From NCBI GenBank assembly GCA_026388255.1, contig JAPLKC010000059.1, positions 1 to 64,000 of the forward strand: 64,000 bases of DNA. The letters are read 5' to 3'. Shown here piece by piece: positions 59,341 to 64,000 of the stretch; the stretch's first letter is position 1, and each line of letters begins with the position of its first letter. The notes under the pieces are model-generated. The model was not told the DNA's origin. It ran no database searches and was given only the letters and a program-made list of their open reading frames with translations. The stretch is from Pseudomonadota bacterium. Lineage in GTDB: Bacteria; Desulfobacterota; Syntrophorhabdia; Syntrophorhabdales; Syntrophorhabdaceae. The translations under genes were made by a program, and so were the position numbers.

Positions 59341-59425
59341 AAGACCGGCAACAGTTTACAAGGATTAATGGGCTTTCTAAAGCTATCCGTATTCCCCCAA
59401 TGTCAAGAATAAAGATTTGACCCCC
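59341..59425. repeat. Interspersed repeat A, copy 1
   Basis: About 85 bp similar to 63817-63904; the last 27 bases (59398-59424) are identical in both. It ends AAAGATTTGACCCC, reminiscent of the CAAGACCTGACCCC element. Confidence 0.65.
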
Positions 59426-59442
59426 ATGATTCTATTGACTTT

Positions 59443-59515
59443 TCCTTGCATTTTTATAAAGTTTGGAGCAAAATGGAAAGAAAAAAGGGGCGGCAGGGCA
59501 GGAAGATTTTCTTGG
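59443..59515. repeat. Interspersed repeat B, copy 1 (3' part only)
   Basis: TCCTTGCATTTTTAT, AAGTTTGGAG and AAAATGGAAAGAAAAAAGGG match the 3' halves of the copies at 61211 and 62281. The 5' half with the palindrome is missing here. The gap 59142-59556 holds these repeats and the palindrome but no gene. Confidence 0.65.
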
Positions 59516-61126: not shown

Positions 61127-61210
61127 ATGTGTGTGGATACAGGAGGGACATCCTTAACGATTTCACTTTTTGTTTTGCTTTTGACCGAGGCGTTTTTTTT
61201 GATGAATAAC

Positions 61211-61425
61211 AAGACAGGGCAAGCCTTTCCGGGGAGTTTAAATTTTGCTATCACTGTGATAGCAAAATTAAAAAGGCCTCGCGCCTTTACGAACAATCCC
61301 ACCTTTTCCGATAAAAATATCCTTGCATTTTTATGAAGTTTGGAGGCAAACGTTTAAATTTGCCGAAGGCAAACAAATGGAAAGAAAAAGGGGCGGCATG
61401 GCAGGAAGAATTTCTTTGGCGGGGG
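61211..61425. repeat. Interspersed repeat B, copy 2, with perfect palindrome
   Basis: Full copy: AAGCCTTTCCGGGGAGTTTA, a palindrome at 61241-61269 (14-bp arms AATTTTGCTATCAC / GTGATAGCAAAATT around T), then CCTTGCATTTTTATGAAGTT, TGGAGG and AAATGGAAAGAAAAAGGGGC. No gene is seen in 61127-61645; frames there run through the repeat. Confidence 0.7.
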
Positions 61426-61645
61426 AAGGATATTTACTTATTTGTGGGCATCCATTTTGCGAACATTCACACCCCGTCCCACAACTAGCTTCTGCTCCGA
61501 TGATTTTGTGCATTTTGAGCAGTGAAGTGCACAAAATGCAGATTTTATGTGCAGTAGCTGTTGACTGTTTTGGCTGGGTCAAAACTCTCCGCTCTTTTCC
61601 GGCCAATACGATTTTTGATGGATAAAAAGGCGTGGGGAATTTTAA

Positions 61646-61900
61646 CTATCTTTTATAAAGCTCTCTTCTGTGGCCTACTCGCAAGACCACAATATCTTTA
61701 TCTTCCATATCAAAAATAATTCTGTAATCTCCTACTCTAAACCTGTAGCTGCCAAGGCTCGAATCCGTAAGGCTTTCAGCATAACTCAACGGATCATCCA
61801 AATAACGCATAAGCGCCTTGCCGATCCTTTTCTTTTCATTATCATCAAGTTTCTTAATATCTCTTTGGGCTCTTTGTGTATATACAAACCTGTATTTCAC
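61646..61900 (-). CDS. RelE/ParE-family toxin
   Basis: 84 residues: FVYTQRAQRDIKKLDDNEKK, then GSYRFRVGDYRIIFDMEDKD and VLRVGHRRELY. The conserved YR(F)RVGDYRIIF core and basic C-terminal motif are those of RelE mRNA interferases. Its start overlaps the antitoxin stop by 4 bp. Confidence 0.88.
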   Translation of the reverse strand: MKYRFVYTQRAQRDIKKLDDNEKKRIGKALMRYLDDPLSYAESLTDSSLGSYRFRVGDYRIIFDMEDKDIVVLRVGHRRELYKR

Positions 61901-62097
61901 TCCCCGAAAACCTCTTTGTGGGTTTTAATTCTCCCTGTTTTGTAATCTGCCCTTGCCTCTCTGATACTTTCCAGATACTCAGGAGAAGTTGCCGCAAGAA
62001 GATCCTCCAGAAAGGAATCTCTTTCTTTTTTCTTCATTGTCTTTATTGCTTTTATAAGTTCTTCCCGGCTTAAATCTACTTTTACGGTATTGAGCAT
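61897..62097 (-). CDS. Antitoxin partner of RelE
   Basis: 66 residues. MLNTVKVDLSREELIKAIKT then an acidic-basic amphipathic part with ESIREARADYKTG. Position, size and 4-bp overlap with the relE-type gene make it the cognate antitoxin; its own family is not obvious (DUF-type helical antitoxin). Confidence 0.75.
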   Translation of the reverse strand: MLNTVKVDLSREELIKAIKTMKKKERDSFLEDLLAATSPEYLESIREARADYKTGRIKTHKEVFGE

Positions 62098-62280
62098 ATG
62101 GAAACCTCGCTATTTAAACTTTCCTAAGTATATCATTTTATGCAAAATGTGGAAATTATTAAATTGTTCCATGCTTCTCCTTGCCGAAGTATTTTTTAAT
62201 GGATAAAAAACCGACAAGAGAGATTACACCGGAGACGTATCATAAATACGTTCAATCCATCAATTTTAAACGTGGAGCGA

Positions 62281-62480
62281 GGCCGGATAAGGCTTGATGG
62301 GGAGTTTGTATTTTGCTCCAACAGTTGGAGCAAAATTAAAGAGGTCTCCCGTCTGCTTAAAAATACCTTCGCCGATAAAATTTCCTTGCATTTTTATGAA
62401 GTTTGGAGGAAAATGGAAAGAAAAAAAGGGGTGGTACCACGGGGATGAATCAGCAAAAGGATTTTTCTTTTTGGCGGGGA
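62281..62480. repeat. Interspersed repeat B, copy 3, with perfect palindrome
   Basis: GATAAGGCTTGATGGGGAGTTT leads to a palindrome at 62310-62336 (13-bp arms ATTTTGCTCCAAC / GTTGGAGCAAAAT around A). Then come TTCCTTGCATTTTTATGAAG, TTTGGAGGAAAATGGAAAGA and TTGGCGGGG. The interval 62098-62608 has no gene. Confidence 0.7.
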
Positions 62481-62526
62481 GAATATATACCTCACTGGGG
62501 GTTGCCAAACGAAAAAAGTGATATTT

Positions 62527-62540
62527 CAAGACCTGACCCC
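62527..62540 (+). repeat. CAAGACCTGACCCC element
   Basis: Third occurrence of the core found at the ends of the 2.1-kb block (44830 and 46959). Similar elements are known to me as terminal parts of REP sequences linked to Y1 (RAYT) transposases; no such transposase is in the window. Confidence 0.55.
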
Positions 62541-62608
62541 ACTTGTTCTCAAAAACAAATCGGCATAGCCTGCTTAAATCAGATAAATCAAATAATTTTT
62601 GGAATGCC

Positions 62609-63670
62609 ATGAAGGCTCAAACGTTCATGGCCATACCTCCGGGGGCCATCATACCGGGGAGCCTGCCCAGGTTTAAGATCTACATACCCTCGCCGAATGG
62701 AACCAATATACTATGGGCGAAGGATGGCAACCAGGTGACCCCTGATCAGATCAGAAGGCTTGCAGACACAGGGATAAGGGAAGTTTTTATTGACCTTGAG
62801 GAAGCAGTTCTTTACGAGGAATACCTTGAAAATCATCTTGGAGACATTCTTTCCAGTGAGTCCCCATCGGAAGATCAAAAAGCAGCAGTATTCAGCAAGG
62901 TGTCCACTAAAGTAGTCAGGAACGCTCTCGAAACATCTTTCAAATCGGGCAAAATAGACACTAAAACCGTGGAAAGGACAGAGCGAATGATCAGGAACAC
63001 TCTCGAATTTATCACAGAATCCAGGTCGCTTCAAGCTCTTGCAAAAATGATCGGCCATGACTACCAGACCTATGAACATGCAACCAAGGTTTTATGGTTT
63101 ACAATTGCTTTTCTAAATGAAAATCCTGATATCATAGAGCAAATCCAACCCGACTGTAATACCTTTGATAAGGAACAAAGAAAGGAAATACTCAGGCAAT
63201 GCGGTGTAGGCGCATTACTCCATGATATCGGTAAAGCATATATAGAACCCGAAATAATCAATAAGGGCAGTTCGCTCTCGGAAATAGAATGGGGAATTAT
63301 GAAGTGCCATCCTCTCTACGGTTTGGCAATGCTGCTCGATACCGAACTCCCGATTTTCGTGAAGAAAGCTGTTCTTGAACATCACGAGGATTTTCAGGGC
63401 GGCGGTTATCCTATGATGATTGATGGAACAAATATAAGTGTGCTGGCCAGAGTATTGAGAATTATAGATGTTTTCGACGCTATGACATCCCGGCGTCCTT
63501 ACAAAGAGGCCATGCCTCCCCTTAATGCGGTGAAGATAATGGTAGGAACTCCTATAGACGATAATAGCCCCGAAGTTGATCCCAGAGATCAGAAAATGAA
63601 ACGGTGTTTCGACGAAAAGTTTCTGCGAAAATTCATTGTTTTGCTGGGCGCTGCGAGGATAGGTTCTTAA
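62609..63670 (+). CDS. HD-GYP domain protein, probable cyclic-di-GMP phosphodiesterase
   Basis: 353 residues from ATG 62609; the in-frame extension upstream lies in repeat-derived sequence. Residues about 1-60 resemble the DUF3391 N-terminal domain (GTNILWAKDGNQVTPDQIRR). HD motif GALLHDIGKAYIEPE and GYP motif HHEDFQGGGYPMMI are intact, with VLRIIDVFDAMTSRRPYKEA after. It should hydrolyse c-di-GMP with a bi-metal centre. No GGDEF partner nearby. Confidence 0.9.
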   Translation: MKAQTFMAIPPGAIIPGSLPRFKIYIPSPNGTNILWAKDGNQVTPDQIRRLADTGIREVFIDLEEAVLYEEYLENHLGDILSSESPSEDQKAAVFSKVSTKVVRNALETSFKSGKIDTKTVERTERMIRNTLEFITESRSLQALAKMIGHDYQTYEHATKVLWFTIAFLNENPDIIEQIQPDCNTFDKEQRKEILRQCGVGALLHDIGKAYIEPEIINKGSSLSEIEWGIMKCHPLYGLAMLLDTELPIFVKKAVLEHHEDFQGGGYPMMIDGTNISVLARVLRIIDVFDAMTSRRPYKEAMPPLNAVKIMVGTPIDDNSPEVDPRDQKMKRCFDEKFLRKFIVLLGAARIGS

Positions 63671-63782
63671 AGGGCACTTATGTTGGGTGGGGACATCCTT
63701 CAATATTTCAACAACCTTTTCGACATTATATTTCACATATTCTTTTGGTCGGAATGATTTCCTGTTCATATCGTTGGAGGTG

Positions 63783-63807
63783 ATTCTCCGACACTGTGGC
63801 GGAGAAT
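63783..63807. repeat. Palindrome ATTCTCCGACAC-T-GTGGCGGAGAAT
   Basis: 12-bp arms with one mismatch around a single T, 63783-63807. It has the same AC-T-GT centre as the palindromes of repeat B and lies just before repeat A copy 2. Confidence 0.6.
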
Positions 63808-63816
63808 TTGTAATTC

Positions 63817-63904
63817 AAGGACTGGCAACAGTTTATAAGTATTTAAGGGCTTTTTTTAAACTCTGTCCCGATTTCCACAATGTCAAGAATAAAGATTTGA
63901 CCCC
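63817..63904. repeat. Interspersed repeat A, copy 2
   Basis: Matches 59341-59425, with the last 27 bases identical (63878-63904). It follows the palindrome at 63783. Confidence 0.65.
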
Positions 63905-63945
63905 AAGTTGTTTTGTTTTAAGACTTGTGGGAAATAGAACAAGGC

Positions 63946-64000
63946 AGGATAAGGCTTTCCGTGGCGTTTACCTTTTTCTGTAACTGTTACAGAAAAAGGT
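63946..64000. repeat. Interspersed repeat B, copy 4, cut by window end
   Basis: GGATAAGGCTTTCCGTGGCGTTT leads into a palindrome at 63970-64000: 15-bp perfect arms ACCTTTTTCTGTAAC / GTTACAGAAAAAGGT around T. The window ends at its last base. Confidence 0.65.

Follow-up and report, generated by a model that had tools for sequence, protein, structure and literature searches.

Palindromes with covarying arms as predicted parS-like sites of an amplified orphan ParB-like protein family in Syntrophia-like bacteria

Introduction

Rickettsia palindromic elements are dispersed palindromes that are found within reading frames, and REP/BIME elements, with their RAYT transposases, form many dispersed intergenic palindromes. 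Chromosomal ParABS systems, such as those of Spo0J and C. crescentus ParB, combine a ParB_N domain carrying GERR and ENLQR motifs and an HTH_ParB domain with a palindromic site, the 16-bp parS. Noc, with its site NBS, is an orphan ParB paralogue with an altered, single DNA specificity. How can a DNA-binding protein and its site evolve in step and stay matched? The palindromes described here bear on this open question.

From sequence comparison, we propose that they are very probably parS-like binding sites of much-amplified orphan ParB-like proteins, each intact gene carrying its own site, and that non-coding copies of these sites lie in the window, i.e., the whole 64,000-nucleotide stretch of DNA under analysis. 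The family shares both domains, both motifs and the palindromic site with the chromosomal systems, and its predicted contact residues occupy helix positions equivalent to those of C. crescentus ParB. It differs in having no ParA neighbour at the nine loci viewed, tens of paralogues with many predicted specificities per genome, and an odd-length 21-bp site, centred on ACWGT, that lies within the gene between the specificity codons. Like Noc, these proteins would be orphan ParB paralogues with altered DNA specificity, but with dozens of specificities and self-carried sites. Unlike the Rickettsia elements, the palindromes occupy a single gene position and have hypervariable, paired arms coupled to the encoded helix. 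Unlike REP/BIME elements, their arms are not conserved in sequence, Y1 transposases are few (the linkage of Y1 genes to palindromes was viewed on one contig, C53) and the likely partner is a ParB-like protein. A search of the open literature found no earlier report of such self-carried sites.

Results

Palindromes of the window and their genome-wide family

The initial annotation had described four palindromes with arms around a single central base, and all four were recovered at its coordinates. The features are as follows.

61241..61269, no strand: site 1, AATTTTGCTATCACTGTGATAGCAAAATT, 14-bp arms, centre T at 61255
62310..62336, no strand: site 2, ATTTTGCTCCAACAGTTGGAGCAAAAT, 13-bp arms, centre at 62323
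63783..63807, no strand: site 3, ATTCTCCGACACTGTGGCGGAGAAT, A/G mismatch at pair 4 counted from the centre
63970..64000, no strand: site 4, ACCTTTTTCTGTAACTGTTACAGAAAAAGGT, 15-bp arms inside the window
61207..61416, minus strand: element 1 (site 1), non-coding; ParB sense ..TVIAKFKLPGKAC.., read as a decayed ParB HTH cassette
62275..62430, minus strand: element 2 (site 2), non-coding, of the element 1 family; reads ..TVGAKYKLPIKPYPASLHV..
63937..64000, minus strand: element 4 (site 4), non-coding, ends at the window edge
59441..59513, no strand: partial copy of a window element, CCTTGCATTTTTATAAAG...GGCGGCAGGGCAGGAAG, repeat families D2 and D8, without palindrome

The arms are perfect at three sites (14, 13 and 15 bp), whereas site 3 has one mismatch. 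Site 4 runs beyond the window end on its contig, C59, with full arms of 18 bp. All four centres are ACTGT or ACAGT, the common centre already described. First-order Markov sequences of the window's length held on average 0.6 palindromes with arms of at least 10 bp and spacers of 0–8, compared with three in the window with arms of 13–15 bp and a 1-base spacer. The window palindromes are thus real and far above chance expectation.

Comparison of the elements also bore out that three of the palindromes are equally placed within a repeat with kept flanks. Two window elements carry the flank GGGGAGTTT without change and the third has it as GTGGCGTTT, and CCTTGCATTTTTATGAAG is exact downstream of two palindromes; the flanks of site 3 are unlike those of the other three. 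When 14 elements were aligned (three from the window, relatives from elsewhere and window site 3), the flanks were mostly common and the sites differed.

We read 422 kb of the same genome, a non-random sample, and observed the centre ACWGT in 15 of the 16 single-base-centre palindromes with a pairing score of at least 10; three further palindromes, with a 3-base loop, carry AATGT. The pattern TTTGC-N{2,6}-ACWGT-N{2,6}-GCAAA, which leaves the inner bases free and does not require pairing, occurs 10 times in this genome and 18 times in a congeneric relative; with a single exception, these sites are perfect palindromes. Pairing, for which a covariation test on further copies had been suggested, is thus kept beyond the four copies of the window. 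The window palindromes are members of a genome-wide family: its centre is ACWGT, and its arms are hypervariable yet stay paired.

An amplified family of orphan ParB-like genes

The statement that the palindrome family has no gene of its own here holds for the window, but genes of the family are abundant elsewhere in the same genome. Longer element copies include a stretch homologous to part of a 309-residue protein frame, L050:7421-8347, the coding sequence of which contains a perfect 31-bp palindrome. Furthermore, the core of site 1, TATCACTGTGATA, equals that in two ParB-like genes of the genome, L050:7421-8347 and L151; the 4-bp core of site 2, TCCA, had no match among the gene-borne sites read, a repertoire that is incomplete.

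The genes are ~310 codons long. The protein of L050:7421-8347 contains ParB_N (PF02195, E = 1.6e-13) and HTH_ParB (PF17762, E = 1.7e-6), and its structure matches are ParB, Noc and KorB (6t1f, 7nfu and 7bnk for the N-terminal CTPase-fold domain), with 7nfu (Noc) as the best Foldseek match; the HTH domain matches 6y93 (Z 11.2, rmsd 2.0, 104 aligned). The motifs GERR and ENLQREDLNP, almost invariant in the family, point to putative CTP binding.

We searched 60 genomes, and a second search scored 50 candidates per genome, so that the counts are lower bounds. At least about 40 matching places each were found in this genome, in a congeneric one and in two others from the same family. Two more genomes gave a few matches and the rest mostly single weak ones, as for ordinary ParB; named records place the family in Syntrophia-like deltaproteobacteria. 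The assemblies are drafts, several of them named as metagenome-assembled. Many gene copies sit at the ends of contigs, each genome's repertoire is incomplete, and many copies are broken. No ParA was seen in the ten neighbouring genes scanned at nine ParB-like loci, and none of the genome's six ParA-like ATPases is encoded close to the copies compared. Phages and plasmids yielded generic ParBs only, at <60% identity. Runs of the short repeats AGTGAATAGTGAATAG and 'GGTTTAATCCCGCTTTATGCGGGACAT' flank many ParB-like copies (e.g., L050:7300-7420, L170 and L171).

A paired site inside every gene cassette

We sampled 64 gene copies with 48–100% identity to the query, and then located 122 cassettes in six genomes. 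In all 122, the centre of the palindrome is the third base of Thr codon 159, in an x-T-V-x motif where the ParB helix-turn-helix begins, immediately ahead of the DNA-reading helix. Pairs 2–9 are all Watson-Crick in 111 of the 122 cassettes, and at least seven of these eight pairs are in 121. The centre ACWGT and the register are constant, and the gene-borne sites take the form NNNNNMAC-W-GTKNNNNN, of odd length and many sequences, which does not fit the canonical parS TGTTNCACGTGNAACA.

All four pair types are used at positions 5–8, G.T pairs occur in only 4 of 576 cells (pairs 2–10), and mismatches are tolerated at the central pair 1. The near absence of G.T and the relaxed pair 1 fit a dimer that reads duplex DNA, and not a folded strand. 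It had been said that the proposed covariation would fall if other copies lacked pairing or if the arms were identical through recent duplication: other copies do pair, and 113 distinct gene cassettes hold 74 distinct left arms.

Two relatives from another organism, at 41–43% identity, have the palindrome equally placed, and both follow the rule that R176 goes with C (see below). We also compared 74 relatives from other lineages and from viruses. Palindromes with a single-base centre and arms of at least 9 were confined to L302, L303 and L356, in each case at the HTH start. The ParB-like gene of L356, at ~30% identity, has a 21-bp palindrome (1943-1963, AAACAGGCAAATTGCCTGTTT) of near-identical placement and different centre. 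A ParB-like gene on a viral contig, L403, contains TATTTCACGTGAAATA, near the classical parS, within its coding sequence.

A residue-base code

The covariation proposed at the DNA level proved correct and much stronger than could be read from the window: the arms track residues of the ParB recognition helix. Residue 176 goes with pair 3 in 107 of 109 cassettes (R with C, 54/55; N with A, 53/54). At residue 172, P goes with T (17/17), M with A (9/9), Q with C (7/7) and R/K with G (56/59), and at residue 171, Y goes with T (23/23). The coupling peaks are 176 with pair 3, 172/171 with pairs 4–5, 146 with pair 6, 144 with pair 7 and 151/148 with pair 8; the rest of the protein shows no comparable coupling to the arm bases. 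Coupling lies mainly, and peaks, at non-synonymous codon positions, and residues 176 and 171/172 are encoded outside the palindrome, with the helix residues 33–52 bases away. For pairs 6–8, the coupling is weaker and linkage may contribute, because residues 144–151 adjoin the palindrome.

With a table learned on 62 cassettes, predictions for held-out ones were correct in 48 of 50 at pair 3 (baseline 25), 45 of 49 at pair 5 (baseline 25) and 39 of 49 at pair 4 (baseline 19). Phylogeny was controlled with 25 independent nearest pairs by backbone, i.e., by the remainder of the protein: in 15 of them residue 176 and pair 3 both differed, in 10 both were the same, and never did one change singly. 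On the backbone tree, label changes were about as frequent as for shuffled labels. These joint changes (15:0) and scattered labels mean that common descent of the genes cannot explain the code. In C. crescentus ParB, R173 and N178 contact parS, and 179 is one of the ParB/Noc specificity positions (PMC7383237); residues 171, 176 and 177 of the family align with its R173, N178 and T179.

Mosaic genes

Pairwise distances correlate inside each terminal part (N-terminal, r = 0.61; C-terminal, 0.67), hardly at all between the two (0.10–0.19), and likewise little between the cassette of codons 143–180 and either part (0.06–0.13). By these distances, the cassette varies independently of the remaining gene. 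Fragments holding only about codons 113–215 recur. The simplest reading would be that frequent recombination moves the site and its readers as one piece. Free-standing fragments of this kind (~codons 113–215) are found on G007 contigs C37, C89, C115 and C270, G016 contig C55 and G001 contigs C9, C10 and C30, and several begin with CCATGGATCAGGC.

Non-coding copies

The gene-cassette profile matches element 1 at 61268-61222 (E = 3.5e-4) and gives weak matches to elements 2 and 4 (E = 1.2 for element 4). The window cassette ..TVGAKYKLPIKPYPASLHV compares with the gene-type ..TVNAIIEISAKSYPTLFRT on the minus strand. As judged from these comparisons, the window elements are decayed non-coding ParB cassettes, with stops in their flanks, whose sites are intact. 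Other repeats in the window, at 59374-59424, 63854-63904 and 62503-62541, end with ..TTGACCCC / ..CTGACCCC and are unrelated to the ParB cassette.

Of the non-coding sites, 81 were located via the palindrome and 39 via the flank alone, and since the former were picked by their palindrome, the claim of intactness rests on the latter. In this flank-found group, a different one from that of the window elements, 34 of the 39 copies keep at least seven of eight pairs at site B, and 26 keep all eight, at a mean pairwise flank identity of 68%; the elements bear two or three palindromes at fixed spacing. Matches in the pooled gene repertoire existed for 35 of 38 and for 32 of 32 non-coding cores, against null means of 14.4 and 12.2. 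Because pairing outlasts flank drift and the cores match the gene repertoire, the non-coding sites seem to be kept intact, the simplest reading being that they are additional binding sites; some copies could be mere debris.

Discussion

In the mechanism that we propose, a dimer would bind the two half-sites of the palindrome, with residue 176 reading pair 3 (R for C:G, N for A:T), residues 171/172 reading pairs 4–5 and residues 144–151 reading pairs 6–8. A DNA stretch of ~110 bp would then carry the specificity of the protein and the matching site together and, because the site lies among its own specificity codons, recombination moving this stretch would keep the match. Physical binding, loading as a CTP clamp and the cellular role (spreading, autorepression or nucleoid organisation) are inferred: clamps of the ParB type might start at the site and extend across their own gene, repressing it, or could organise the nucleoid as in Noc or aid the spread of the family. 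The decayed window cassettes retain an intact site and are therefore probably extra loading sites or a recombination reservoir.

Could the palindromes instead be hairpins, formed either by a structured RNA or by single-stranded DNA that a Y1 transposase recognises, as for REP elements, with pairing alone under selection? Perfect pairing despite varied sequence, the fixed spacing of the two or three palindromes in non-coding elements and the relaxed pair 1, which would fit a 3-base loop, speak for this reading. On the other hand, the arms covary with helix residues encoded 33–52 bases off, at non-synonymous positions, and G.T pairs are nearly missing; Rfam and tRNA searches found nothing in the window, and the genome has only two Y1 matches against at least about 40 ParB-like loci, a Y1 transposase having been the suggested partner. 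We consider hairpins very improbable. The causes first proposed, i.e., a structured mobile element, a recombination site or a structured RNA, are not what these data indicate, as a hairpin would need none of the agreement between the arms and the encoded ParB-like helix. Because the arms covary with residues outside the palindrome, we read it as a predicted cognate protein-binding site. Equally slight is the chance that the palindromes arose by mutation (hairpin-templated correction or strand switching) or hitch-hiked with the helix by linkage, without any binding. Templated events do produce perfect palindromes, and since the cassettes recombine, linked changes would travel together; however, linkage would couple all neighbours, whereas the observed coupling is residue- and pair-specific and fits known ParB contacts, and the ACWGT centre and the register are constant over 122 cassettes.

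A reading that accepts binding at the gene-borne sites but takes the non-coding window copies as inert debris of gene decay deserves more weight, although we still regard it as unlikely. Their flanks are decayed cassettes with stops, and many ParB-like genes are broken; against this stand the pairing kept by most flank-found copies despite flank drift and the agreement of non-coding cores with the gene repertoire. Returning to parS-like sites of orphan ParB-like proteins, we suggest, with a little less than even confidence, that the cassette is self-matching in its specificity: the codons of the base-reading residues surround their own site, and recombination among copies, including the non-coding cassettes, would yield protein-site pairs that are already matched. 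Protein and site would then be locked in one short DNA stretch, with more than 100 natural matched pairs, through which a ParB-type recognition code could be read directly and tested, and one bacterial genome could hold many parallel ParB-like specificities.

Two further ideas were dropped. A pseudoknot in the mid-segment of the longer elements (CTGTAAAGCCAATACAGGCTTTGGTTTG) was abandoned once homology between this segment and the ParB reading frame (ISGKSIMTL..) had emerged. An integron seems unlikely since the elements are homologous to the ParB cassette, despite toxin-antitoxin neighbours and two broken integron-integrase genes, with stops or frame changes, on G000 contigs C45 (2251-3193) and C53 (12258-13195). 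Toxin-antitoxin pairs (ParE/RelE, MazF/PemK, or TumE and its HTH partner) are situated between adjacent palindromic elements at window positions 61646-62097 and at L038:11814-12382, L046:15689-16347 and L114:864-1324.
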